Shown in pieces: positions 5,147-16,155 of a DNA stretch of 20,853 bases (positions within the stretch are counted from its first letter, which is position 1; each line of letters starts with the position of its first letter). The translations under genes were made by a program, and so were the position numbers. Location: positions 1 through 20,853 of IMG/VR virus record IMGVR_UViG_3300047557_000298. One strand, written 5' to 3'. The notes beneath the pieces were generated by a model. The model saw nothing but the letters and a program-made list of their open reading frames with translations. It searched no databases and had not been told where the DNA came from. This DNA comes from a virus.

Positions 5147-5854
5147 TTATCGGACCCCGCTATTCTGCGGCAGCGGTGCAAGACGCGCCTGACCACTGCG
5201 GTACGCATCGCTACGCTCAAGGCCATCACCCAGACGTTGCGCCAGAGCCAGCGCTTCCTTGTACTTGCCGTCGTACAAGGCCATCATGTCGGTCTCGCCC
5301 TTCATGTACGTATACGCCTCAACCAGCGAACCGTACAGCAGCACCGAGTCAAAGTTATCGCCCAGCCAAGTCTGCCCATCCGCAGCCACGGTGATGGACT
5401 CCGGATAGAAGAAGTAGTGAAGCTCCACCGTGTACTGCGCATCCGGGGTCGGCCCCAGAATGAACGACAACTCGTCCGTCAGCACTGGGTTGGCTCCGCC
5501 CGTGGTCGTGGGACCAAACAGCGCGTAGTACTTGGGGATCGCTTGATCGTTCGGATTTGGGTACGCCTGCCGGATGAAGTTCACATCCTTGTTGAGCAGG
5601 TACTCGTAGTTGCCAGACCCATCCACGACCGCCAGAGAATACACCGCGAGAAAGTCGGTGGGAGCGGAGAGATACTTGTTGGCCGCAGTTGTGATGCCCG
5701 TCACGTTCTTGCGAAGCGAAGGAAACTGAACCGAGTTGAAAATACGCTGCTCGGCCTGCTGAATGAACGTGTTGATAATCGACGGCGTGGTCGAATACTG
5801 AAACGTATTCTCAGTGTAATCCTGAATCGCAGTGACGAGCGAAGCGTAGTTCAT
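5147..5854 (-). CDS. Head-to-tail adaptor protein (SU10/T7 gp11-like)
   Basis: A 235-residue protein with the hallmark opening MNYASLVTAIQDYTENTFQY and the helix INTFIQQAEQRIFNSVQFPS, followed by LRKNVTGITTAANKYLSAPT-DFLAV. This layout is that of phage adaptor proteins of the SU10 adaptor and T7 gp11 (tail tubular protein A) type, which bind below the portal and link it to the tail. Further on are LSFILGPTPDAQYTVELHYF and a C-terminal helical segment (YKEALALAQRLGDGLERSDAYRSG). Length is close to that of other adaptors. The ribosome binding site is weak (GAGATAG), and it starts nine bases after the preceding gene ends. Family assignment is by motif recognition, and the role by family knowledge. 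Confidence 0.82.
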   Translation of the reverse strand: MNYASLVTAIQDYTENTFQYSTTPSIINTFIQQAEQRIFNSVQFPSLRKNVTGITTAANKYLSAPTDFLAVYSLAVVDGSGNYEYLLNKDVNFIRQAYPNPNDQAIPKYYALFGPTTTGGANPVLTDELSFILGPTPDAQYTVELHYFFYPESITVAADGQTWLGDNFDSVLLYGSLVEAYTYMKGETDMMALYDGKYKEALALAQRLGDGLERSDAYRSGQARLAPLPQNSGVR

Positions 5855-6301: not shown

Positions 6302-6724
6302 TTACGTCGTGGATACCGTTACTGTACCCAATTGCACAGATAAAACCAAGTTGTTAGGGGTCAGACCTGCGTCGTTCAAACTGGCTCCACCCACCGGTGC
6401 CCAGCCCCATTGAAATATGCGGCTACCCGCCTCCACAGACCCGGTGCCCAGAGGGCCACCTCCGGGCTGAATCTGCAAGCCACTCGTGCCAGACAGCCGG
6501 TAGCTGCGATCTGGGCGGGGATTACGCAAACCCTGCGGGTCGTCCACAGGATACATGCCCAACTGCAACTGCGGCTGATCAGGGTCCCAGCACTCCGGGC
6601 AGACCAACAACTCGTAGTTCTTGGTCTTGATCACCTCACGGCGCAGCAACGACAGCTTGAACCGCTGATCGCAGCGGTCGCACTGAGCAATTGCATACTT
6701 ACCGCTGGCGAACCGGTTACCCAT
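6302..6724 (-). CDS. Zinc-ribbon-containing structural protein
   Basis: A 140-residue protein with two CxxC pairs, C15-C18 and C42-C45, separated by 23 residues in a ribbon-like context (AQCDRCDQRFKLSLLRREVI, then LLVCPECWDPDQPQ). This is the expected pattern of a zinc ribbon. The second half (residues 60-140) is Gly/Pro-rich and then beta-prone, ending LVLSVQLGTVTVSTT, and looks more like a virion protein than a transcription factor. The ATG overlaps the stop of the adaptor-like gene by one base (TGATG), which implies coupled translation. I infer a neck or tail component that uses zinc for stability. A regulatory role cannot be excluded. Confidence 0.75.
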   Translation of the reverse strand: MGNRFASGKYAIAQCDRCDQRFKLSLLRREVIKTKNYELLVCPECWDPDQPQLQLGMYPVDDPQGLRNPRPDRSYRLSGTSGLQIQPGGGPLGTGSVEAGSRIFQWGWAPVGGASLNDAGLTPNNLVLSVQLGTVTVSTT

Positions 6725-7656
6725 CAGTAAGAACTCCCAATGAACTGCTGCCGGGGCACAAACCGCACGGCTGCCTTTTCACGGTCTTCATCAGCGGCAA
6801 GCTGCCATGCCTCGTCGTACTGCGCCTTCAACAACGCCAAACGCTCAGCACCACCGGGCACTTTCATAGCAACGTAGTACGCTAGCCCCGCAGCCATACA
6901 CGGAATAAACCTAAATGGTACATCCATGACGTTCACACCGCCACCAGCATCCTGCGTGCGGCGCAGTCGCCAGTACACGAACTGATACGCCTGAGAGTTG
7001 TCCGGGGTAGGCCACACCGTAATTGCCGGAAGCTGCTGCCAATAGACCGCCGCGCCACTATTGTGCGACGCAGCAGTTGTGTTGTCCTGCCCCCGGAAGC
7101 AGTTGTACAGAGTGTTACCGGTGATGTACCCGTAGTTGATGATCTCAGAGTCGATCTTCACGAACCCAGTAGCAGGCAGGCCCACCACGGAGTTCAGGGT
7201 AATCTGGTTTACCGAAGCATTGATGCTGCCGCTCAGAGTCAGTCCCGTCGGAGACTGCTGGCCGTTGTACCGCTGCACCCAGACCTGAATCGGTCGGGCT
7301 TGCTGTAGCTTGTTGGGCAGCGTGGCGTAGGTCGAGACGCTGATCCGGGTAATCGTCAGGTCGGCTTGAGTCGCCGCCACGTTTGCGCCCGTGCGGATGA
7401 CGTGCTCCAGCAAATCAACCGTATCCGTTGGCAGTGCGTAGGTGTTCTGGCCCGGGACAAGGTCAATCAGACCCTGCTCAATCGTCCACAGATTGATGCC
7501 ACGGTTGGCCCAATCCGCGAACATGATGTTGAGCGACCGCCGTGCGGTACGCAGGTCGTAACCCGTGCGAAGCTCCGAACCCGCCCGCTCAAACGCCTCC
7601 TCGACCAACTCGGTCAGGTCAAGGTTGAATGCGGAGGAGCCGGATGTCTGAGCCAT
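6724..7656 (-). CDS. Adaptor-like head-tail connector protein
   Basis: A 310-residue protein. The N-terminus (LDLTELVEEAFERAGSELRT, then GYDLRTARRSLNIMFADWAN) and the following LWTIEQGLIDLVPGQNTYAL resemble the helical opening of phage adaptor or stabilisation proteins (T7 gp11 / P22 gp4-type folds). Residues about 140-205 hold a beta-rich insert with GFVKIDSEIINYGYITG and YNCFRGQDNTTAASHNSG, a module seen in many phage tail proteins. The core resumes with WPTPDNSQAYQFVYWRLRR and a C-terminal helix (ALLKAQYDEAWQLAADEDRE). The ATG follows the preceding TAA directly. It lies four genes before a second adaptor, suggesting the two occupy successive rings of the neck. The broad class is fairly sure; its exact place in the neck is not. 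Confidence 0.75.
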   Translation of the reverse strand: MAQTSGSSAFNLDLTELVEEAFERAGSELRTGYDLRTARRSLNIMFADWANRGINLWTIEQGLIDLVPGQNTYALPTDTVDLLEHVIRTGANVAATQADLTITRISVSTYATLPNKLQQARPIQVWVQRYNGQQSPTGLTLSGSINASVNQITLNSVVGLPATGFVKIDSEIINYGYITGNTLYNCFRGQDNTTAASHNSGAAVYWQQLPAITVWPTPDNSQAYQFVYWRLRRTQDAGGGVNVMDVPFRFIPCMAAGLAYYVAMKVPGGAERLALLKAQYDEAWQLAADEDREKAAVRFVPRQQFIGSSY

Positions 7657-7923
7657 TTACTTCCCCAGTTTCTTCAGGGTTTGGGCAAGCCGCGCACGCT
7701 GACCAAGTTTCCCCGGCTTCTTTGCGGCAGCGGCCAGCTTCTTTGCAGGAATCGGCTTGCCTTCTTTGGCACCAAGCGCGGAGCGCAGAGCCCCGGGCTT
7801 CTTGATGGCGGACTGAATCCATTTGGTGCTGCCACCCTTCTTCATTCCCTCAACGCCACGGCCTTTGAGGATGTCAGCTTGAGTGACCTTGCCGTCACCC
7901 GTCAGGTCAGGAAACTTTGCCAT
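7657..7923 (-). CDS. Small protein: calcium-loop (dockerin-like) plus basic domain
   Basis: An 88-residue protein in two parts. Residues 6-17 read DLTGDGKVTQAD, which matches a 12-residue EF-hand/dockerin-type calcium loop (D at 1, T at 3, D at 5, G at 6, D at 12) followed by a short helix. After GMKKGGSTK, residues 35-88 form a strongly basic helical region (KWIQSAIKKPGALRSALGAK, then KKLAAAAKKPGKLGQRARLA) ending KKLGK. The second half recurs in small proteins of many environmental phages, but I cannot attach a function. It starts by one-base overlap (TAATG) with the preceding gene. Calcium binding and nucleic-acid binding are inferences from residues. Confidence 0.78.
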   Translation of the reverse strand: MAKFPDLTGDGKVTQADILKGRGVEGMKKGGSTKWIQSAIKKPGALRSALGAKEGKPIPAKKLAAAAKKPGKLGQRARLAQTLKKLGK

Positions 7924-8156
7924 TATCGAAACCTCGCTGTTTTCTTAGCTATGCCTTTGGGCTGGGCTACGAACTGCTTCCCGGCAGCTTTCCCCGCACG
8001 CTTTGCACGAGTTGTCGCAGCGTACTCAGCAGGGCTGAGGCTTTTGATCGCAGCTTCTGGAAGATATCGCTCACCAGTTTTACTAGACGGTTTGCCACTC
8101 TTGGTCCTCCACTTTTGCGCGGTCCAGTCTTTAAGAGACTTTTGCGGCGCTTTCAC
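7923..8156 (-). CDS. Small basic conserved protein (77 aa)
   Basis: A 77-residue lysine-rich protein with GTG start at 8156 overlapping the previous stop by four bases (GTGA). The GGGGGAAG needed for ribosome binding lies inside the repeated C-terminal tail of the gene before. The sequence MKAPQKSLKDWTAQKWRTKS, then KTGERYLPEAAIKSLSPAEY and QFVAQPKGIAKKTARFR, belongs to a compact family that occurs in environmental phages and large viruses, possibly the one catalogued as DUF5872; I am not certain of the number. Conserved Trp, Tyr and charged residues indicate a folded domain rather than disorder. The function is unknown. Confidence 0.75.
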   Translation of the reverse strand: MKAPQKSLKDWTAQKWRTKSGKPSSKTGERYLPEAAIKSLSPAEYAATTRAKRAGKAAGKQFVAQPKGIAKKTARFR

Positions 8157-8230
8157 ACCAACTTCCCCCGCGTTTTACCACGCTGCGCAATTCCGTCGGC
8201 TCGTTTGGAGGCAGTCATGCCACCCTTGGC
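8153..8230 (-). repeat. Shared C-terminal tail, copy A
   Basis: Encodes the last 25 residues plus stop of the gene at 8153-8470. Over 23 codons its amino acids are identical to copy B, but 14 codons differ, all synonymously. Confidence 0.9.
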
Positions 8231-8470
8231 AAACGAACGACGGTACTCCACGCCAACTTTCTGAGGTTTGATGAACGCGGACTGCCCTTCGGGTTTGCCA
8301 GCCATAGCATCAACATACGCCTGAATGCTGGAGTTTTTGTCTAATTCTTTTGTGTACGAAAGCCGTCCGCCCGCGCCCTTAAAATTTTTGTCAAGTGCCA
8401 CGAAATGCGGGGTCAACCGCACACCGTCAGCTTTTGGCTGATCGCGCTCAGGCAACTCGTCTTTAGTCAC
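8153..8470 (-). CDS. Hypothetical protein with shared KGG...KTRG C-terminal tail (copy A)
   Basis: A 105-residue protein. The GTG at 8470 is chosen because GGGGGA lies five bases upstream and it gives an eight-base overlap with the preceding gene; longer readings have no ribosome binding site. Residues 20-80 look folded (VRLTPHFVALDKNFKGAGGR, LSYTKELDKNSSIQAYVDAM, KPQKVGVEYRRSF), with a beta-like alternation that I do not recognise as a named family. The last 25 residues, AKGGMTASKRADGIAQRGKT and RGKLV, are the tail shared with the genes ending at 8740, 9335 and 9577. That a distinct body carries the same tail suggests the tail is a portable localisation or binding signal. Function is otherwise unknown. 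Confidence 0.75.
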   Translation of the reverse strand: MTKDELPERDQPKADGVRLTPHFVALDKNFKGAGGRLSYTKELDKNSSIQAYVDAMAGKPEGQSAFIKPQKVGVEYRRSFAKGGMTASKRADGIAQRGKTRGKLV

Positions 8471-8738
8471 GATATCCCCCGCCAGCGGCCTTGTACTTCT
8501 TAGCGACAAGCTGAGCCTTACGGGCCGACCATTGGCCTGCCCCGGTGCCGTGAGTGGCAGCGGCTTTAACTTGGCTGACGATGCGTTTCCTGAGTTCAGG
8601 TTTCGTGTAATTGCCAGCCGCGTTCACCTTCCCGCCCTCAGCGTACTGAGTGAAGTCGGTGTCATCCCGCCGGGGCTTTTTGACCCCCTTGGGCATCTTG
8701 CTCGGACGGATTGCGCCCATCCCACGGCTGGCCATCAT
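8463..8738 (-). CDS. Small basic protein with QWSARKAQ motif (91 aa)
   Basis: A 91-residue protein beginning MMASRGMGAIRPSKMPKGVK. The ATG at 8738 follows the previous stop by one base and has GGGAAGG about nine bases upstream, inside that gene's tail. An in-frame reading continues back to 8789 through the tail of the previous gene and is not favoured. The N-terminal half is basic and probably disordered (KKPRRDDTDFTQYAEGGKVN). The C-terminal half (KPELRKRIVSQVKAAATHGT, GAGQWSARKAQLVAKKYKAA, GGGYRD) is a conserved helical module that also occurs in other environmental viruses. Unlike its neighbours it lacks the KTRG tail. It may bind nucleic acid, by charge only. Confidence 0.72.
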   Translation of the reverse strand: MMASRGMGAIRPSKMPKGVKKPRRDDTDFTQYAEGGKVNAAGNYTKPELRKRIVSQVKAAATHGTGAGQWSARKAQLVAKKYKAAGGGYRD

Positions 8739-8739
8739 G

Positions 8740-8817
8740 TCAGTACACCTTCCCGCGAGTCTTGCCGCGCTGGGCAATACCATCAGCACGCTTGGAAGCG
8801 GTCATTCCACCCTTGGC
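8740..8817 (-). repeat. Shared C-terminal tail, copy B
   Basis: Encodes the last 25 residues plus stop of the gene at 8740-9333. Its GGGAAGG lies just before the start of the next gene and probably acts as its ribosome binding site. Confidence 0.9.
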
Positions 8818-9333
8818 ATAGCCTTCGGCTTTCAGACGATCCCGAGTCTCTTGAGTGCCCATGTATCGCTGGAGTTTTTTACCCATGCGAGAGAACATGT
8901 CCATGGTCTCTTGACGCTGTCGGGCACTCTTCTCCCCCGCCGAAGAGGTGGGTTCCGGAACAGTACTAACCGCGCCTTGCGATCTGGCAATCCTACCGGC
9001 CAACGAGCCAGAAGGAAAATTCGTGGTGCGAGTGGCAGGCTTAGACTCCGCACTTGCGGCGGACTTGCGCTCTGCTGGTGCAGTCGATTTGGTTTCTGAC
9101 TTGGACTCACCTGCCACTTTCGTGGAGTAAGTTTTGCCGTTCCATTCAAACGTCTTGTCACCAGCGCGGCGCGCTTTGCTAAACGCCTCTTTGAAGGTCT
9201 CCGGCTTTTCTTCTTTTTCAGAAGAAACCAATCGCGCTTCTTCTGCTACCGCCTCTTTCGGAGCCGGTCCAGAGATCGCGCCTTCATCGACATCGACTAC
9301 ATCGCCTTCGGCGTATCGTCTAGCTTTTTTCAC
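8740..9333 (-). CDS. Hypothetical protein, low-complexity middle, shared tail (copy B)
   Basis: A 197-residue protein. The GTG at 9333 is preferred: AAGGA lies about nine bases upstream and the start nearly abuts the previous stop. The alternative ATG at 9378 would translate the preceding gene's tail in another frame. The N-terminus is acidic (YAEGDVVDVDEGAISG), residues 45-70 are charged (EEKPETFKEAFSKARRAGDK), then comes a short strand pair (TFEWNGKTYSTKV) and a Ser/Ala/Lys/Glu low-complexity stretch up to about residue 130. A charged helix (RQRQETMDMFSRMGKKLQRY) leads to the tail AKGGMTASKRADGIAQRGKT-RGKVY. The body is unrecognised. The tail ties it to its neighbours, suggesting a common destination in the virion or cell. 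Confidence 0.72.
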   Translation of the reverse strand: MKKARRYAEGDVVDVDEGAISGPAPKEAVAEEARLVSSEKEEKPETFKEAFSKARRAGDKTFEWNGKTYSTKVAGESKSETKSTAPAERKSAASAESKPATRTTNFPSGSLAGRIARSQGAVSTVPEPTSSAGEKSARQRQETMDMFSRMGKKLQRYMGTQETRDRLKAEGYAKGGMTASKRADGIAQRGKTRGKVY

Positions 9334-9334
9334 G

Positions 9335-9412
9335 TCACACCATCCTTCCGCGAGTTTTACCGCGTTGGGCAATACCATCCGCGCGTTTGGAGGCAGTCAT
9401 GCCGCCTTTTTT
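9335..9412 (-). repeat. Shared C-terminal tail, copy C
   Basis: Encodes the last 25 residues plus stop of the gene at 9335-9580. It differs from copies A and B mainly at the first residue (K for A) and the last three. Confidence 0.9.
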
Positions 9413-9580
9413 CATACCCTCACCACGCGCAGAGGCAGCAATCGCTTTCTGACGTTCTGCTTCCGCAGAATCCTTCTGGCTGTCCCGGGTGAGCATCATC
9501 GGGATCGCTCCCATCATGCCCTTGGACGCAAGGCTTTTCAGCTTGTCCTCATCAGCAAGCGCACCCAGAAGTAGGCTCAT
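9335..9580 (-). CDS. Small hypothetical protein with shared tail (copy C)
   Basis: An 81-residue protein whose ATG overlaps the preceding TGA by four bases (ATGA). The N-terminus is a short helical stretch (MSLLLGALADEDKLKSLASK) followed by GMMGAIPMMLTRDSQ, methionine-rich and moderately hydrophobic. A charged Ala/Lys/Glu helix follows (DSAEAERQKAIAASARGEGM), and the last 25 residues are KKGGMTASKRADGIAQRGKT-RGRMV. Almost a third of the protein is thus the shared tail. The hydrophobic patch near residues 20-30 is too short and broken for a confident membrane segment. The family is unknown to me. Confidence 0.72.
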   Translation of the reverse strand: MSLLLGALADEDKLKSLASKGMMGAIPMMLTRDSQKDSAEAERQKAIAASARGEGMKKGGMTASKRADGIAQRGKTRGRMV

Positions 9581-9648
9581 ACCATCCGTCCTTTGGTTTT
9601 ACCGCGCTGGGCACAGCCATCGGCAGCTTTGACGTAGCCACCCTTGGC
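9577..9648 (-). repeat. Shared C-terminal tail, copy D (variant)
   Basis: Encodes a 23-residue variant with ADGCAQRGKTKG in place of ADGIAQRGKTRG, two residues shorter near its start. AAAGGACGG near the stop is the likely ribosome binding site of the next gene. Confidence 0.85.
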
Positions 9649-9792
9649 CATGGCTTTAGGCTTAGACGCCTTGGGCTTCGGCTTGGACGGGGTCACGGAG
9701 CCGCCATCAATGTCTTGCGGAGGCGGAGTGCCAGAGTCGGGGTCGTAGACGCCGTCTTTAACGGCAGGCTTTCTCTTTTCGAGCATGTCCAT
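9577..9792 (-). CDS. Small Pro/Lys-rich protein with shared tail (copy D)
   Basis: A 71-residue protein starting MDMLEKRKPAVKDGVYDPDS, with AAGGAG six bases before the ATG. The middle is a Pro/Lys/Ser-rich low-complexity linker (SVTPSKPKPKASKPKAMAK), and the end is a variant of the common tail: AKGGYVKAADGCAQRGKTKG-RMV, with a cysteine in place of isoleucine. The body is so short that it could serve mostly to deliver the tail. The linker resembles the flexible basic arms of DNA-binding proteins. Coding is supported by the ribosome binding site, the four-base overlap with the next gene and the conserved tail. Confidence 0.7.
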   Translation of the reverse strand: MDMLEKRKPAVKDGVYDPDSGTPPPQDIDGGSVTPSKPKPKASKPKAMAKGGYVKAADGCAQRGKTKGRMV

Positions 9793-9807: not shown

Positions 9808-10290
9808 TCAGCAGTAGCCGCCCTTTTTCATGCCCAGCGGTTTGGCAGCGCCCATCTTGACCTGCATTGCCTTGGTCTTGCCTTTGGAAGCAACGCCGTC
9901 AGCAGCTTTGTGACCAGCAGCCAGACCACCAGAAGCCATCTTCTTGGTCTTGCCGCCGTACTTCATACCGGCTTCGGCCATCTCGTGCTTGATCATGGAC
10001 TTGGGAGCGCCCTTCTTCTTCATGAAGGCCAACTCTTTACCAACCATCTTCTTGGATTCTTTCATGTCACCACCTTTTGCAAAAAGTTCCATCTTGCCTT
10101 GACGGGTGTCAGGGCGGTTGATTTTCTGAAGATCGGCACGGCTGCCACTGCCTTTACCAAACTTCAGACCCTTGTCAGCTTTGACGAACTCTTTGCCGAC
10201 AGATTGAGGAATGCCCACGCGCTTCGCAGCGGCGGGGTCGTTAGCGACCATCGCCATCAAGTTGTGCTGCGCTCTAGTCTTGCTGGGCAT
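9808..10290 (-). CDS. Basic conserved phage protein with internal tail-like segment
   Basis: A 160-residue lysine/methionine/glycine-rich protein. The ATG at 10290 is favoured by GAGGAG six bases upstream; it overlaps the preceding membrane protein by 17 bases. The first 45 residues (MPSKTRAQHNLMAMVANDPA, AAKRVGIPQSVGKEFVKADK) form a domain common in environmental phages whose function I do not know. Then follow KGG segments (LFAKGGDMKESKKM), a helical Lys/Met part, and a divergent version of the shared tail (SGGLAAGHKAADGVASKGKT-KAMQV). The end is GMKKGGYC, with a C-terminal cysteine like the protein at 10532-10777. Its high positive charge suggests it could be packaged with DNA; this is inference. 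Confidence 0.75.
   Translation of the reverse strand: MPSKTRAQHNLMAMVANDPAAAKRVGIPQSVGKEFVKADKGLKFGKGSGSRADLQKINRPDTRQGKMELFAKGGDMKESKKMVGKELAFMKKKGAPKSMIKHEMAEAGMKYGGKTKKMASGGLAAGHKAADGVASKGKTKAMQVKMGAAKPLGMKKGGYC
9859..9933 (-). repeat. Divergent internal tail-like segment
   Basis: Encodes SGGLAAGHKAADGVASKGKT and KAMQV within the gene at 9808-10290, about 16 residues before its end. The spacing of GG, ADG, and GKT matches the tails A-D, but the rest has diverged. Confidence 0.55.
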
Positions 10291-10522
10291 TCTTGGCTCC
10301 TCGCATCGCGTCGATCTTGCGTTCAATCCTGTCGAACCGCTCCATCAACTGCTGCATGTCCGCTCGGAACTCCGTGCGTGTGATGTGATCACGCGCCACT
10401 TCTTCCCGGGTGCGGTTAAGCAGAATGCTGATGCGTTGAAGCTCGGCAAACTTTTCTTTCACGATGAACCCCAACAGCGCCACAATGGCCGTGAGAATCA
10501 CGTTCCAAACCATCATCTCCAT
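10274..10522 (-). CDS. Small membrane protein with coiled coil
   Basis: An 82-residue protein with one probable N-terminal transmembrane helix at residues 4-22 (MVWNVILTAIVALLGFIVK). It is followed by a continuous amphipathic, coiled-coil-like helix (KFAELQRISILLNRTREEVA, then FRADMQQLMERFDRIERKID) and a polar end. Phage proteins of this shape include holin accessory proteins, XhlA-like proteins and inner-membrane spanins. None can be assigned, as no endolysin is visible in this window. The start is supported by GAGG seven bases upstream, within the end of the preceding gene. It is the only clear membrane protein here, lying between small basic genes. Confidence 0.72.
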   Translation of the reverse strand: MEMMVWNVILTAIVALLGFIVKEKFAELQRISILLNRTREEVARDHITRTEFRADMQQLMERFDRIERKIDAMRGAKNAQQD

Positions 10523-10531
10523 CGCGTGACC

Positions 10532-10777
10532 TCAACAGTTCCATGCGCGTAGGGCTTTGTTAATCCGGGAGTTTGGGTCGTTCGCAGTCTTCGCGGATGT
10601 GAGCTTCTTCTTCATGCCACTCATCCGAGCGCAGAAGGAGTCGCGCCTCTTGCCGCCTTCGGGCTGCGGAGGTTTTAGGTTCATCCCTTGGGCCTTCGCA
10701 GAGGCGCGCCCCTTGGCGTTCAGACCACCTTTGGGGTTCTTGCCTTCTTTGCGTTGCCATGCCGGGGACTTAGCCAT
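10532..10777 (-). CDS. Small conserved basic protein (DUF6321-like)
   Basis: An 81-residue basic protein starting MAKSPAWQRKEGKNPKGGLN and ending NDPNSRINKALRAWNC. The central part (QPEGGKRRDSFCARMSGMKK, KLTSAKTANDPNS) and the terminal Cys are characteristic of a small family widespread in environmental phages; I believe it is catalogued as DUF6321, from memory. Two cysteines (one in SFCARM and one at the C-terminus) could bind metal or pair with another subunit. The start overlaps the previous stop by eight bases. The function is unknown; its charge and setting among small virion-type genes suggest a packaged or DNA-associated protein. Confidence 0.78.
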   Translation of the reverse strand: MAKSPAWQRKEGKNPKGGLNAKGRASAKAQGMNLKPPQPEGGKRRDSFCARMSGMKKKLTSAKTANDPNSRINKALRAWNC

Positions 10778-11060: not shown

Positions 11061-11480
11061 TTAAGCCGTACGGGTGAAGGTGTACGCGGTGGGGCTGGAG
11101 AACATCAGGGTGAAGCGACCGATGCCGGTAGCGCCAGAAGCAATCGTCAGATCACCGAACGAACCAGCGGTATCCACAGCGGCGCTGGACAGAACTGCGT
11201 TGGTGTTCACAGCCACAGTCACGGTGCTCGCGCCAGCGGTGTTGTCGATGTACAGGTCAAGGGTGGTACCTTGAGTTGCACCAATCAGCGCACCCAGATC
11301 AGTGCCGGTGGGCAGAGTGATGGTCGTCGGCGCAGCCGAAGTGGAAGTGATGTAGCCAGACGCAACCTGCGCAGCAGAAGCAGTGCCAGTAGCGTTGACA
11401 GCGTTAGCGGAAGCGACTTGGTGGCCACCAATGAAGCCGTTTTGCGAAACGACCGGGCCGTTGAACGTAGTACGTGCCAT
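11061..11480 (-). CDS. Putative decoration or head-fibre protein (139 aa)
   Basis: A 139-residue Ala/Thr/Ser/Gly-rich protein starting MARTTFNGPVVSQNGFIGGH. Residues 50-100 include TSAAPTTITLPTGTDLGALI, GATQGTTLDLYIDNTAGAST, then VTVAVNTNAV, a pattern of beta strands like that of phage head-fibre or decoration proteins. It ends RFTLMFSSPTAYTFTRTA. There are no Cys or Trp residues. GAGGA lies about four bases before the ATG. It is the first structural gene after the endonuclease gene, at a distance of about 100 noncoding bases, and without that insertion would directly follow the major capsid gene, which favours a capsid-surface role. Not proven from sequence. Confidence 0.7.
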   Translation of the reverse strand: MARTTFNGPVVSQNGFIGGHQVASANAVNATGTASAAQVASGYITSTSAAPTTITLPTGTDLGALIGATQGTTLDLYIDNTAGASTVTVAVNTNAVLSSAAVDTAGSFGDLTIASGATGIGRFTLMFSSPTAYTFTRTA

Positions 11481-11577: not shown

Positions 11578-12303
11578 TCACCCGGGGATGGCGGGGTCAA
11601 CATATTTGAACCGCCAGCCTTTATAGGGTCCACGAGCTAGTGGCTTGCCCGATTTAAGCGCCCGGTTAGCCGTAGGAGGTTTGATACCCGCAGCTTCCCG
11701 CAGTGCAGCGATACTGGCGTACCGAAGCACCTCGCCCTCCGGGCTTATTGCTTCGACCGCCTTGCTGACTTTGGCCCCGTGGTCAGGACGCTTCTTGCCG
11801 TACCAGAAGTTGCCCTCCCCTGAGAGGGTAGCGGAGATTTTGGCGCGGACTTCGGCGGACTTGGGTTTGCCGATGAGGTGCTCGGTCTTCTTACGGATGA
11901 CTTCTGCGTCCTGTTTACGCCCAGTGGAAGCGGCCCGAATGACTTCAATATTTTCGGGGGAATGTTTGTACCCCCATGTCGGACTCTGCTCTCCGCTAAC
12001 GCCAAGCATCGGTGCAGTGGCGTCTACTCCAAGGTTGTAGCAGTAGTCCTTGCCTACGTGCTCTTTGAGCCAGACGTTTTCGGCAGCGAGCAAGTCGGCT
12101 TCGTCCGGCAGTTCTTCCACAACGACAAAGATAAACGCCTGCTCCCCGTATTTGAGCCACGCGGCTTGCAGGTGGCGGTTGTTGTGGCGGTTGTTGCGCA
12201 ACTCCGAAAAGTGTCGCGCCTTGCGGCGCTTCAGGTCTACGGCGCTACCCACGTAGAATTTGTTGTTGACGACATTGATGATCTTGTAGATGCCTCGGGC
12301 CAT
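11578..12303 (-). CDS. GIY-YIG homing endonuclease with NUMOD3 and NUMOD1-like domains
   Basis: A 241-residue enzyme. GIY lies at residues 4-6 and YVG at 17-19, followed by the basic helix DLKRRKARH (23-31). E75 lies in the AAENVWLKEH segment, where the family places its metal-binding glutamate. Residues 110-185 contain NUMOD3-like repeats (SPENIEVIRAASTGRK, SAEVRAKISATLSGEGN, FWYGKKRPDHGAKVSKA). The C-terminus (YASIAALREAAGIKPPTANR, GPYKGWRFKYV) is a NUMOD1-like helix-turn-helix. Together these specify DNA-site recognition by a freestanding homing endonuclease. It follows the capsid terminator and has its own AAAGGAG site; it may have its own weak promoter. The insertion lies between head genes, a common location for phage homing genes. 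Target unknown. Confidence 0.93.
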   Translation of the reverse strand: MARGIYKIINVVNNKFYVGSAVDLKRRKARHFSELRNNRHNNRHLQAAWLKYGEQAFIFVVVEELPDEADLLAAENVWLKEHVGKDYCYNLGVDATAPMLGVSGEQSPTWGYKHSPENIEVIRAASTGRKQDAEVIRKKTEHLIGKPKSAEVRAKISATLSGEGNFWYGKKRPDHGAKVSKAVEAISPEGEVLRYASIAALREAAGIKPPTANRALKSGKPLARGPYKGWRFKYVDPAIPG

Positions 12304-12410: not shown

Positions 12411-13322
12411 TTAGGTCGAACCAGAGGAACCCCACATCCCGAGCGGATCGCTCCAGCCAAAAGAATACCTTTCGCGAGCCTTGTAACGGACGTTGCCCGT
12501 GTCAAAATCCCCGTCCATAGAATTCTGCAGCGGGGTACGCACGAAGTGCTTCATGCCGTTGGGAACGTCAGTGGTCAGGAACCATGCGTTCGGGTCGGTC
12601 AGGAAGTGGTTCACGGTGTAACCCTCGGGGATTGCACCCATCTGCTTGATAGCGTTGATGTCGTTATCAGCAGTTGCCACGCGCAGTTCGGTATCAAGCA
12701 GACGCTTGGCAACGAACATCAGCGACGGGGGAACAATCATCTTCTTGGGCTTGGCAGCGATCAGCAGGCCACGCTCGTCCGTCCAAGCGGCGATCTGAAT
12801 AACGGCGGCTTCCAGAGAAGTCTCGTTCAGGTCAACTTGGGTGGAGGGGGTGTTGCTGTTCACGCCGCCGGACACCAGCGGGTGGTTTGCGTTGAACAGG
12901 GAGACGCCATCACCACCGGGGTAGGTGTTGGAGAAGCCGTTGTTCAGAACCGCAGCAGCTTTAACCTGCTTGGTATACGCCATAGCGCGGGCCAGAGCCT
13001 TGGTGTAACGAGCAGACAGGCTGTCGTACAGGTTGTCCTCAATCGCCTCTTCGGTGATCGAGAAACCCAGAGCAATGGTTTCGTGCGTATAGCGGGTGCT
13101 CCAAGCTTCCTGCGCGTTGTCATAAGCAATCGCAGAGCCTTCGTTCTTCACCGGAGCGGCGGAGAAGCCAGACAGCTTGGTTTCTTCTTCAAACGAGCGC
13201 TCAGAGGTCTCGGTTTCGTAGATCTCTTTGTGCTCTTCGCCGTAGCGAGCGTACTCCATCCCGAACAAGGCGTTCAGACCGGGGAGCAGCTCTTTCAGCA
13301 GTTGTGCGCGTGAAATAGCCAT
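12411..13322 (-). CDS. Major capsid protein (Mu gpT-like, HK97-fold class)
   Basis: A 303-residue protein with the layout of Mu gpT-like major head proteins. These have an N-terminal helical arm (ISRAQLLKELLPGLNALFGM), a stretch with YTHETIALGFSITEEAIEDN and LYDSLSARYTKALARAMAYT, a loop NHPLVSGG at residues 146-153, and a beta/helix core (KPKKMIVPPSLMFVAKRLLD, DINAIKQMGAIPEGYTVNHF). Size is typical of such coats, and there is no N-terminal scaffold extension, in line with a separate scaffold gene at 14526-15545. AAGGAG is nine bases before the ATG. A strong terminator right after the gene suggests high, insulated expression. HK97 fold is inferred from family membership, not from sequence alone. 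Confidence 0.88.
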   Translation of the reverse strand: MAISRAQLLKELLPGLNALFGMEYARYGEEHKEIYETETSERSFEEETKLSGFSAAPVKNEGSAIAYDNAQEAWSTRYTHETIALGFSITEEAIEDNLYDSLSARYTKALARAMAYTKQVKAAAVLNNGFSNTYPGGDGVSLFNANHPLVSGGVNSNTPSTQVDLNETSLEAAVIQIAAWTDERGLLIAAKPKKMIVPPSLMFVAKRLLDTELRVATADNDINAIKQMGAIPEGYTVNHFLTDPNAWFLTTDVPNGMKHFVRTPLQNSMDGDFDTGNVRYKARERYSFGWSDPLGMWGSSGST

Positions 13323-14058: not shown

Positions 14059-14526
14059 TTAAGAACCTGAACCGAAAGTGACCTTCGTCTTCTTTTCAGA
14101 GAAAAGGGGCATACGAGGATCATTTTCACGAAGGAAATTGTTGTCCACCGATTCCATCTGAGCTTTGTTCTGACCCTCGTAGTATTTCATACGCTGATCC
14201 AAAAACTCAGTCGGGATGCGACAGAGCAACAGTCCACCCACTTCAATGCCGCCCTTAAAGCGACCTTCAGTGGTAGCGTGCATCATGAGTTCGGGATAGT
14301 CCTCTGCTTTGCAGGGCTCGTATCCTTCACGCAACCGGGAAGAGATGTTGCTGGGATCAGAAGTTCCCATCGTGCTCAGACGAACCCAGCGATGCTTCCA
14401 GCCCGGACGATCATCCGGAGCGGGTAGCGTCTCGGGCGGACGCCATGCTTGAGGACGCATTTGCGTCTTCTCGCGGGCTTCCAGTTCACGCTTGAGCCGG
14501 TTTTGGGGTTGAACTTGCTGTTCCAT
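14059..14526 (-). CDS. Conserved hypothetical protein in head gene cluster
   Basis: A 155-residue protein with an Arg/Gln/Pro-rich N-terminus (QNRLKRELEAREKTQMRPQA) and a more ordered centre with HRWVRLSTMGTSDPSNISSR and LREGYEPCKAEDYPELM. The stretch IEVGGLLLCRIPTEFLDQRM and KYYEGQNKAQMESVDNNFLR looks like a conserved core; the end is NDPRMPLFSEKKTKVTFG. Its ATG overlaps the TAA of the scaffold-like gene by one base, implying coupled translation. Order portal, chaperonin-like, scaffold-like, this gene, decoration, capsid suggests a procapsid or head component. I do not know the family's function. Confidence 0.72.
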   Translation of the reverse strand: MEQQVQPQNRLKRELEAREKTQMRPQAWRPPETLPAPDDRPGWKHRWVRLSTMGTSDPSNISSRLREGYEPCKAEDYPELMMHATTEGRFKGGIEVGGLLLCRIPTEFLDQRMKYYEGQNKAQMESVDNNFLRENDPRMPLFSEKKTKVTFGSGS

Positions 14527-15545
14527 TATTCATTCCTTCCAAGTAGAGCAACCTGTTTAGCGTACGCCTCTGGGGTAATCCCAAGTTTGCGCGCCAGCGA
14601 AACTTGAGAAGCCTTGAGCTTCACGCGGTTAGGCGGTGTGCTGCGAGTAGCCGGGGCCACAACAGCAGCGGGTTTTGTTGCACGGCGCGGAGAATCATCT
14701 TCGTCTGCCGGTTCTGCCCTTTTCCGAGGCGGCGGTTCTTCCTCATAGCTCCCGTCTTCGTCTTCGAAGTGTTCGGGGAATCGTTTGCGCATCACTTTGT
14801 CGATGGTGCGGAAGTATTCCTCACTACCAACGTAATCGGGACCATATTGCTGCTGTAGCTTTTTGTCAAGCCCCATAGCCATCATAGTCATATCTTCGTA
14901 GCCGGGCTGGCCGAACCACGATTTGTTGGAATTGACCCACTGCTTGGTGCGAGGGGTCATGTTATCTTCGGGAGAGGCGGCGGGCGCAGCGGCAGGCTTG
15001 AACTCGCTCTCCTCAATCGGCTTCATCTGCCCAGCACGCTCTAATTTGAGCGTAGCCTTGGCGATAGCCTCTTGCGCTTCCACCAAAGCATCAGGATCTG
15101 CCGACTCGTAAGCTTCTTTGTACTTCTTTTTGGCTATTTCAAGTTCGGTAGCCGCGCTGGTTTTGGACTGCTCGATGAAGACCTGACTGCCCTCGGCAAG
15201 CTGCTTTTGCAGGCGCTTGTTCTCTTCGTAGACCTGCTTGGCAAACAGTTCAGCGGCTTCACGCTCACGCAGAGCAGCTTCCTTGGCGCGACGCTCGTCG
15301 TGGTAACCACGAGTGAACTTCTTGATACGCGCCTGAACTTTTTCGTCGTAGGACGAGAGTTCCTCTTCGGTGGGGTCTTCCGGAGGCGGTGCGGGTTTGC
15401 GACCACGATCCTCGGGAGGGGTGTCGTCTTCGATCTCAATCTTGAAATCGTCGTCTAGCTGCTCATCAGCGGCTTTGACTTTTTCCTTGGCTTCCTTCTC
15501 GTCCGGGAACTCGAATTCTTCGCCTTCAAACTTCGGCAGGGGCAT
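14526..15545 (-). CDS. Scaffold-like capsid assembly protein
   Basis: A 339-residue highly charged protein. The N-terminus (residues 1-75) is very acidic (EGEEFEFPDEKEAKEKVKAA, DDDFKIEIEDDTPPEDRG) with Pro-rich stretches. Residues about 80-190 are an Ala/Glu/Lys/Arg-rich, coiled-coil-prone helix (ERRAKEAALREREAAELFAK), and the remainder includes NSNKSWFGQPGYEDMTMMAM and a basic C-terminus (NRVKLKASQVSLARKLGITP). The acidic arm plus long helices plus basic end is the usual profile of phage scaffolding proteins, and the gene sits before the capsid gene. The ATG at 15545 has AAGGAG five bases upstream; a GTG two codons earlier would have no spacing. No protease motif is seen. The role is inferred from composition and context. 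Confidence 0.75.
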   Translation of the reverse strand: MPLPKFEGEEFEFPDEKEAKEKVKAADEQLDDDFKIEIEDDTPPEDRGRKPAPPPEDPTEEELSSYDEKVQARIKKFTRGYHDERRAKEAALREREAAELFAKQVYEENKRLQKQLAEGSQVFIEQSKTSAATELEIAKKKYKEAYESADPDALVEAQEAIAKATLKLERAGQMKPIEESEFKPAAAPAASPEDNMTPRTKQWVNSNKSWFGQPGYEDMTMMAMGLDKKLQQQYGPDYVGSEEYFRTIDKVMRKRFPEHFEDEDGSYEEEPPPRKRAEPADEDDSPRRATKPAAVVAPATRSTPPNRVKLKASQVSLARKLGITPEAYAKQVALLGRNE

Positions 15546-15554
15546 GTTCACTCC

Positions 15555-15965
15555 TTAAGCAGCGCGGGTGATCCCACGCGGGTCTTCAACGACGGCTTCG
15601 ACCGAATCATCATTAATGATGCGGAACTCTCGGCCATGAATCTTCAAGCGGGTGCCTGAATTGGGGCGCACGATGACAAAGTCACCTTGTTTGCATGACG
15701 GGCCACTGGGGAACCGGGTGGTGTCCTTGTAGGCGTCGGGGCCGACCTTGACCACAAACAGCACGGGAGTCAGCACCTCTTCGTAGTGCATCGTCTTGGC
15801 GTCCTTAATGATGCCCACGTCGCTATCCGCGTACTCTTCCATCGCTTCCGGAACAACGCACAGAAGGTGGAACGTTTTGGGATCAGGAAGCTGCTTGGCC
15901 TTCTCCTCGGCAGGCTTGTTCAGCAGCCCGGATAAGTCAATCGCCTGCACGTCAAATTCAGTCAT
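15555..15965 (-). CDS. GroES-like co-chaperonin of phage
   Basis: A 136-residue protein. The ATG at 15965 is chosen; a TTG reading extends to 16013 but lacks a good ribosome binding site. Residues 32-128 follow the GroES beta-barrel layout. There is an opening strand (FHLLCVVPE), then a flexible loop with GII at 51-53, matching the hydrophobic mobile-loop tripeptide that docks GroES on GroEL. Next come VLFVVKVGPDAY and then GDFVIVRPNSGTRLKIHGRE, FRIINDDSVEAVVED, closely parallel to the GDIVIF...IMSESDILAIVE end of GroES. Phage co-chaperonins such as T4 gp31 and phage RB49 CocO let host GroEL fold large capsid proteins. Location between portal and scaffold fits that. The fold call is by motif alignment and moderately sure. 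Confidence 0.78.
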   Translation of the reverse strand: MTEFDVQAIDLSGLLNKPAEEKAKQLPDPKTFHLLCVVPEAMEEYADSDVGIIKDAKTMHYEEVLTPVLFVVKVGPDAYKDTTRFPSGPSCKQGDFVIVRPNSGTRLKIHGREFRIINDDSVEAVVEDPRGITRAA

Positions 15966-16155
15966 CGGCTTTTTCCATTCGTTGCACGAGGTCGTTAATG
16001 ATGTTGTCTGCAAGGTATAGACCTCGGATTACCCCGCAGACTTTCTTGTACTCGTCGTACGTATCGGCGCGACTAGCAGCCAAGAACGCGGTTTGTTCTT
16101 GGCGAATTTTTTCAATCTCCGCCTGTACGAGAGCTAAAACTCGGTACTCGTTCAA
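15958..16155 (-). CDS. Small helical hypothetical protein (65 aa), TTG start
   Basis: A 65-residue helical protein read MNEYRVLALVQAEIEKIRQE. Its only plausible start is TTG at 16155, overlapping the portal stop as TTGA. AAGGAG, formed by the portal's last Lys-Glu codons, sits five bases before it, which supports this rare start. The rest (TAFLAASRADTYDEYKKVCG, VIRGLYLADNIINDLVQRM) predicts two or three amphipathic helices with one cysteine. It ends by eight-base overlap with the GroES-like gene. Function unknown; the tight coupling suggests a head-assembly accessory. Confidence 0.7.
   Translation of the reverse strand: MNEYRVLALVQAEIEKIRQEQTAFLAASRADTYDEYKKVCGVIRGLYLADNIINDLVQRMEKADD

Follow-up and report, generated by a model that had tools for sequence, protein, structure and literature searches.

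Analogous short loading peptides have been described in several systems. In phage T4 a shared propeptide, the capsid-targeting sequence (CTS) of the internal proteins IPI, IPII and IPIII, loads divergent small basic proteins (PMC9026906, in excerpt), and in phage P1 cargo is brought into the capsid by a short end of the DarB protein, which also works on a reporter (PMC9024508, in excerpt). Encapsulin cargo-loading peptides are short, often C-terminal and carried by unrelated cargo encoded beside the gene for an HK97-fold shell (PMC7355545, in excerpt). Short-tailed phages also carry virion proteins that leave the head with the DNA, such as gp20-24 of SU10 (PMC9509320, in excerpt) and gp7, gp16 and gp20 of P22, and no common C-terminal tag is described for these ejection proteins in the excerpts of the sources. 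Here, a 20,853-base IMG/VR virus record (IMGVR_UViG_3300047557_000298, referred to over its whole length as the window) was analyzed, in which the small proteins A, B, C and D share a C-terminal peptide. Comparison with relatives revealed a nearly fixed ending of 16-25 residues on many different small proteins of uncultured water-borne phages, encoded by genes beside the capsid gene. With moderate confidence, we read this ending as a portable tag at the C terminus: through it, small, basic and probably disordered carriers would dock onto a single virion-assembly partner and thereby be packaged. No description of the tail was found in literature searches limited to an open-licence library.

The common C-terminal peptide of the proteins A, B, C and D has the consensus GG-x-ASxRADG[IC]AQRGKT[RK]G[KR]MV-stop, and a fifth, weaker and internal copy of the motif lies inside a neighboring protein, E. 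The features concerned are as follows:
8153..8470, minus strand: protein A, about 105 amino acids; likely GTG start at 8470, listed open reading frame (ORF) reaching 8509
8156..8230, minus strand: tail of protein A (AKGGMTASKRADGIAQRGKTRGKLV)
8463..8789, minus strand: small conserved protein without the tail, encoded between B and A and matching phrog_17747; the actual start probably lies inside the ORF
8740..9333, minus strand: protein B, about 197 amino acids; likely GTG start at 9333, listed ORF reaching 9378
8743..8817, minus strand: tail of protein B (AKGGMTASKRADGIAQRGKTRGKVY)
9335..9580, minus strand: protein C, 81 amino acids, aligned with ten members of its own body cluster
9338..9412, minus strand: tail of protein C (KKGGMTASKRADGIAQRGKTRGRMV)
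9577..9792, minus strand: protein D, 71 amino acids; its stop overlaps the start of C
9580..9648, minus strand: tail of protein D (AKGGYVKAADGCAQRGKTKGRMV)
9808..10326 (listed ORF), minus strand: protein E; likely ATG start at 10290
9865..9936, minus strand: degenerate motif copy inside protein E (ASGGLAAGHKAADGVASKGKTKA..)

The GTG starts of A and B were chosen from the upstream sequence, and both proteins are thus probably shorter than their listed ORFs. The original prediction had placed the four tails exactly at these sites on the minus strand. It had described the four genes as consecutive, which needs correction: the order is D, C, B, the untailed gene and A. The untailed phrog_17747 protein was present in 108 loci with a median identity of 74%. 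The statement that 14 of 23 codons differ between A and B, all synonymously, was exact for the inner 23 codons of the tail; over the 26 aligned codons 17 differed, 14 of them synonymously, and the three amino-acid changes were the first residue and the last two. In line with the description of the bodies as unrelated, no significant similarity was found among those of A to E (best E-value 2.2). A tblastn search of a phage collection gave no match for the bare 25-residue tails and none for protein A, and no match to the tail profile was found in the PDB (profile A3, which includes tails mixed by the author). Residues 13-53 of the listed ORF of protein E aligned with the opening 41-42 positions of long PHROGs (845 and 263 positions) that carry the name virion structural protein; judged by its sequence, the start segment of E is another movable piece.

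To sample relatives, IMG/VR was scanned with protein C, yielding at least 600 pattern matches, of which at least 498 encoded a relative; the best 80 loci were kept. Since these loci had been fetched with a tailed protein, they are biased by design, and counts from 79 new loci, fetched by the capsid protein and hence not selected for tails, were kept separate. The window and the two samples make up 160 sources, nearly all of the data come from uncultured contigs, and near-identical loci (such as L006) were counted in. A tail profile was built from 144 distinct tails. In the ORFs of the window and the 80 tail-sampled loci it gave 249 matches at 15 bits or more, against one in reversed sequence. 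In the 160 sources, 372 ORFs matched; the motif was terminal in 247 and followed by 2-46 residues in the other 125, so the expectation that the tail is always C-terminal failed. The 60 non-terminal matches viewed out of these 125 included an E family, in which KTAAPSRDGVATKGKTKG.. is followed by a C-terminal extension that varies, and a long form (RGKTRGTIIMCGGGYMKGKK). In a few short proteins the motif lay close to the N terminus, and in a few it lay near both ends. Terminal tails numbered zero to four per source, and 42 of the 160 sources, many of them short, had none. The distance to the end was mostly fixed, the motif stopping exactly three residues short of the ORF end in 167 of the 245 regular-expression matches of the first sample.

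The same tail was found on many bodies. The 247 terminal ORFs correspond to 232 distinct proteins, whose bodies fell into 95 blastp clusters, or 51 groups after profile merging, which leaves one loose group of 120 of the 232 proteins. When tails from the same genome were paired, 123 of the 124 pairs stood on bodies from different blastp clusters. The best proof of portability is a conserved protein which in the window lies outside the tailed set:
10532..10777, minus strand: DUF6321-type protein, without the tail here (Pfam name taken from the homologue set)

DUF6321 was found in 116 loci with a median identity of 80%. Among these homologues 93 ended bare at W[NK]C and two at WDC, 18 added a GG linker and the tail past this bare end, one carried an RGGGC-type tail and two ended otherwise; the tail is thus gained or lost on a conserved domain. 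Together with the 51-95 body groups, this clean addition bears out the predicted portability. A common domain spanning the bodies was ruled out, because each match to Pfam, PHROG or NCBIfam concerned a single one of the 95 body representatives scanned; the tail is therefore not part of one ordinary domain, the finding that would have spoken against a tag. In the DUF6321-type member from L027, PHROG matches stopped at residue 84-87 of 107, ahead of the tail. The window's DUF6321-type protein itself matched the end or near-end of PHROG profiles 99 to 928 positions long, so this domain looks like a portable C-terminal cap in its own right. A P-loop nucleoside triphosphatase (NTPase) was also considered, since GIAQRGKT fits the spelling GxxxxGK[ST], and was rejected: 9 of the 144 tails have His or Arg in place of the Lys. 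No NTPase family was detected among the 95 representatives in the Pfam, PHROG and NCBIfam scans, and PADLOC gave two weak single matches on the same set.

Selection acts on the peptide rather than on the DNA, as had been proposed from A and B. Pairs taken from different loci (402 pairs, 28 clusters) were saturated in synonymous differences (proportion of synonymous differences, pS, 0.68 in the tail and 0.71 in the body), and the ratio of nonsynonymous to synonymous proportions (pN/pS) was 0.36 in the tail and 0.47 in the body. The suggested comparison of nonsynonymous and synonymous rates (dN/dS) was only weakly in favor, since the tail was below the body in 19 of the 28 clusters (p = 0.087) and the DUF6321 body was more conserved than its tail. 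The same codon was used at a frequency of 0.445 within genomes (expected 0.361) and 0.422 between genomes (expected 0.340); the excess is no greater within than between genomes, an argument against gene conversion in recent times. As a general cause, recent duplication or conversion was therefore rejected, given also the codon differences between A and B, and the claim that the copies are not recent duplications generally held, with identical tail DNA in 3 of 141 same-genome pairs. D-14 and T-6 were invariant in all 144 distinct tails, though the search also permitted N and S. The patterns behind the tail profile and the same-genome pairs both required the glycines, and the pair pattern demanded D and T as well; free evidence of invariance therefore comes only from these two residues in the 144-tail set. 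Tail agreement was 0.762 between different bodies of the same genome and 0.763 within one body cluster across genomes, against 0.734 after shuffling; the within-genome value was matched by 4 of 1000 shuffles, and the agreement was strongest at the last two residues.

As to the genomic neighborhood, the window holds a structural module, read on the minus strand, in the order terminase, portal, GroES-like protein, probable scaffold, capsid, several small genes in succession, an SU10-type adaptor, and tail and fibre genes. The landmarks used below are:
15555-16013, within the module: GroES-like protein
14526-15551, minus strand: probable scaffold, assigned by position, with no named family
12411..13322, minus strand: major capsid protein (Phage_capsid_4 / Mu-like gpT), the bait for sampling relatives
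6724..7656, minus strand: SU10-type adaptor, the far border of the variable stretch of tailed genes

The capsid protein matched Pfam Phage_capsid_4 and Mu-like gpT above the cut-offs. It also matched PHROGs named head maturation protease at positions 418-649 of 668, which is read as the capsid half of fused capsid-protease profiles. A PDB search by sequence gave no match for the capsid protein, 5147-5854 or 11061-11480.

All 27 capsid-sampled loci with at least 5 kb downstream had a tail match, strictly terminal in 25. Over all 79 capsid-sampled loci 106 of the 107 matches were encoded on the same strand as the capsid gene, with a median distance of 2.9 kb past it. Conversely, wherever a tail-sampled locus extended 5 kb or more ahead of its first tail (29 loci), this capsid gene was present. 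In 18 large contigs, picked for size (13 above 50 kb), all matches fell within one stretch of at most 2.7 kb in every case. These capsid-sampled loci and large contigs confirm the anticipated clustering near capsid genes. In a capsid tree of 111 rows, partly chosen for having the tail, the strict tail occurred in 55 of the 61 rows of one clade (support 100/98) and in two rows elsewhere. The 94 complete intervals from DUF6321 to the adaptor held a mean of 7.3 called genes, 1.9 of them tailed. By contrast, the tail is nearly absent from cellular genomes: when 84,980 prokaryote genomes were scanned for short peptide patterns, the 271 matches included a single relative, a phage-like 5.9 kb contig of a metagenome-assembled genome with the same neighboring phage genes.

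The confinement to the structural cluster, together with a constant end on changing bodies, makes a docking tag for one partner the economical reading. The bodies were small and basic (median 104 amino acids, median net charge +4; tails, median +6), and their hydrophobic content (median 0.21 versus 0.31-0.34 in five structural proteins of the window) suggests that they are disordered. Long membrane helices were excluded, a strongly hydrophobic 17-residue window being present in only 1.7% of 176 bodies. In the mechanism proposed, a flexible basic body would be followed by a GG linker and the peptide R-A-D-G-[IC]-A-x-[RK]-G-K-T-[RK]-G-[KR]-Phi-Phi-COOH, and this fixed peptide would be bound by a single partner encoded in the late operon, such as the capsid, scaffold, portal or a neighbor. 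Binding would gather a changing set of small proteins into particles under assembly, with one to four strict tails in each genome where they were observed, and the packaged proteins may then reach the host together with the DNA.

Several observations weigh against this reading. As 125 of the 372 matching ORFs extend past the motif, a free C terminus is not always needed, and the constraint on the tail does not always exceed that on the body, DUF6321 being the opposite case. The strict-pattern tail was absent from 11 of the 94 DUF6321-to-adaptor intervals, and two capsid-sampled loci just below the 5 kb cut, L129 and L106 (4.3 and 4.8 kb downstream), had no match. Among close relatives with 5 kb downstream the canonical tail was mostly lacking, with 0 of 19 in the HTVC023P type and 6 of 23, several of them weak, in the Pag-Yong1 type. 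Additionally, no virion proteomics or binding data were found, and the AlphaFold models were too poor to use (predicted local distance difference test, pLDDT, 55 for protein C and 43 for the capsid).

Compared with the known systems, the tail resembles the T4 CTS in that one short tag stands on several small basic proteins with divergent bodies, a likeness judged without comparing the peptide sequences. The T4 tag is, however, N-terminal, 10-19 residues long and removed by gp21, whereas here the motif lay at the C-terminal end or at most 46 residues from it in all 372 ORFs; the scanned proteins of the window, several of them without a known family, included no separate protease, and the capsid protein matches only the later part of the fused capsid-protease PHROGs. 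Packaging is proven for the T4 proteins and would follow here from the docking proposed. The P1 DarB signal, likewise compared without sequences, also differs, as it is N-terminal and stands on one large protein. Going by sequence position and by the excerpts on T4 and P1, the C-terminal location would set the tag apart from these phage examples. The arrangement also resembles that of encapsulins, with a short C-terminal peptide on different proteins encoded near a shell gene (again without peptide comparison), but encapsulins are cellular compartments with a solved binding pocket, whereas the present tail belongs to a phage structural operon and its sole relative from the prokaryote scan is itself phage-like. 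The tail thus differs from the CTS in position and from encapsulins in context, and was filed as working like them and not as a member of either. The original prediction had known of no named system to explain the tail; analogues do exist, but neither of these systems includes it by the features compared. The kuravirus phiEco32, of the same genus as SU10, had no such tail in its first 26 kb, and a relation to kuraviruses was rejected on this ground.

The strongest rival explanation, although unlikely, is a nucleic-acid-binding tail, whereby a Gly/Arg/Lys-rich end would let small basic proteins coat or condense the phage DNA with no specific protein partner. The positive charge of tails and bodies, the RG-rich composition and the near absence from cells fit this explanation, which is also compatible with packaging. 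Charge alone, however, requires neither a D-14 and T-6 that never vary, nor a length past the motif that is fixed in most terminal copies, nor a final pair of residues that is hydrophobic or Cys in the majority of tails and is matched among those of one genome. The tailed proteins could instead sit as decoration on the outside of the particle or at the head-tail joint, plugged in by the tail. The position of the genes between capsid and adaptor would suit such an outer docking peptide, as would a constant tail on bodies that vary as surface parts can, but this is quite unlikely given that the bodies seem disordered and basic, not folded and adhesive, and that no receptor-binding or fibre family was found for the 95 representatives, most matched PHROGs being without known function.

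C-terminal degrons are common, and the module contains a GroES-like protein and a capsid protein with matches to head maturation protease PHROGs (taken above for the capsid half of fused profiles), all of which would agree with a tail recognized by a protease, a degradation machine or the GroES-like protein itself. Such a signal for processing, turnover or folding is nevertheless improbable: among the window proteins scanned, several of them without a known family, there was no separate protease, and in 18 of 18 large contigs the tail was confined to the late cluster and did not appear on early proteins. An element at the nucleic-acid level, with the tail codons serving as the ribosome-binding site of the next gene or as a recombination site for cassette exchange, would explain why the 3' end is constant while the body changes, and a 1-4 base overlap with the next called gene was indeed seen for 39% of tailed versus 19% of untailed neighbors. 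This is very improbable and largely refuted by the synonymous saturation; the codons are freely replaced with a modest equal-codon excess (0.42 versus 0.34 expected), and copies away from the gene end exist. Common descent without shared function, in which the bodies of old paralogues diverged and their ends happened to persist, could draw on the loose profile-merged group of 120 of the 232 proteins, but it is scarcely credible when DUF6321 homologues differ in the presence of the tail and 144 distinct tails keep D and T at saturated synonymous distance.

Moreover, other tails were detected in the relatives. A blind search within each locus for common C termini found other tails on two or three ORFs, beside some chance pairs, in the loci L179, L189, L205, L238, L248, L287 and L300/L303. 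The tail pairs of L287, L238, L248 and L300 were diverged in DNA. In L179, two different ORFs (L179:8849-9142 and L179:10193-10540) had exactly the same C terminus, ENYNDQVKRKFGGGKL, unlike the other tails; their nearly identical DNA (16 of 20 codons) indicates that one may be a recent copy. More distant relatives carry RGxGxA-type tails, at times common to two or three proteins per genome. The generic pattern [RK][GA]xGx[AC]x5-12-stop matched 85 of 3173, 35 of 2498 and 19 of 1694 sense ORFs in three samples, versus 5 of 4810, 1 of 4140 and 2 of 3094 antisense ORFs; a few of the sense matches look like chance. Comparable tails were present in cultured relatives, namely the Pelagibacter phage HTVC023P (gp30, gp32 and gp51) and the Planktothrix phage Pag-Yong1 (UMO75986.1), and Pag-Yong1, MinM2 and Pra-JY27 have one tailed protein in common. 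DSL-LC04 gave a weak match of 7.9 bits, and an 8.5-bit match in an ORF of GB2A was taken for noise, since shuffled ends reached 8 bits once. No convincing tail was found in the fetched parts of CRP-902, QDWS535, HMO-2011, T7 and phiEco32, and a relation by tail to T7 gp6.7 or gp7.3 was rejected because the generic profile gave no match. A tentative wider interpretation is that a C-terminal cargo code is general to a large group of abundant aquatic short-tailed phages, with lineage-specific dialects such as RADGIAQRGKTRGKMV, RGDGACMKGHTKGRMV, ARGxx..KPTKLY, RGVGxAR..[IM]Y and VKRKFGGGKL. Each dialect would stand on at least two otherwise unrelated proteins and be recognized by a virion partner evolving along with it, and new small genes would become cargo by gaining a tail.

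Other observations concern the same relatives and the rest of the window. The records OL906435.1, OQ594354.1 and PP438419.1 name different hosts, are each 65,014 bases long and encode a 100% identical tailed protein; they are probably one phage. HTVC023P gp30 and several tailed proteins (L086:8935-9540 and proteins of cluster 0) have a basic start, a Gly/Ala-rich, moderately hydrophobic segment (for example DLAGLAALGALGYMLSKK) and a long low-complexity part, and the basic and Gly/Ala-rich start may be a shared N-terminal function. In the window, a 77-amino-acid protein at 7923-8156 (minus strand), phrog_14910, of function not known, was present in 85 loci with a median identity of 87%; phrog_14910 also occurs in other phages, among them HMO-2011 (whose coat protein is annotated as P22-like), Roseobacter CRP-13, Pelagibacter HTVC033P and Methylophilales MEP402. 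The ORFs at 328-897 and 11578-12303 (minus strand), one of them directly after the capsid gene, have by eye the look of GIY-YIG homing endonucleases.

If the docking tag does load virions, the cargo of abundant uncultured phages could be read straight from metagenomes by a sequence rule, and dozens of orphan proteins without database relatives would become a defined class of candidate delivered proteins. It would also constitute a C-terminal loading signal for phage particles, whereas the T4 and P1 examples are N-terminal. Finally, it raises the testable question of whether bodies are swapped under a fixed address label in response to host defences.

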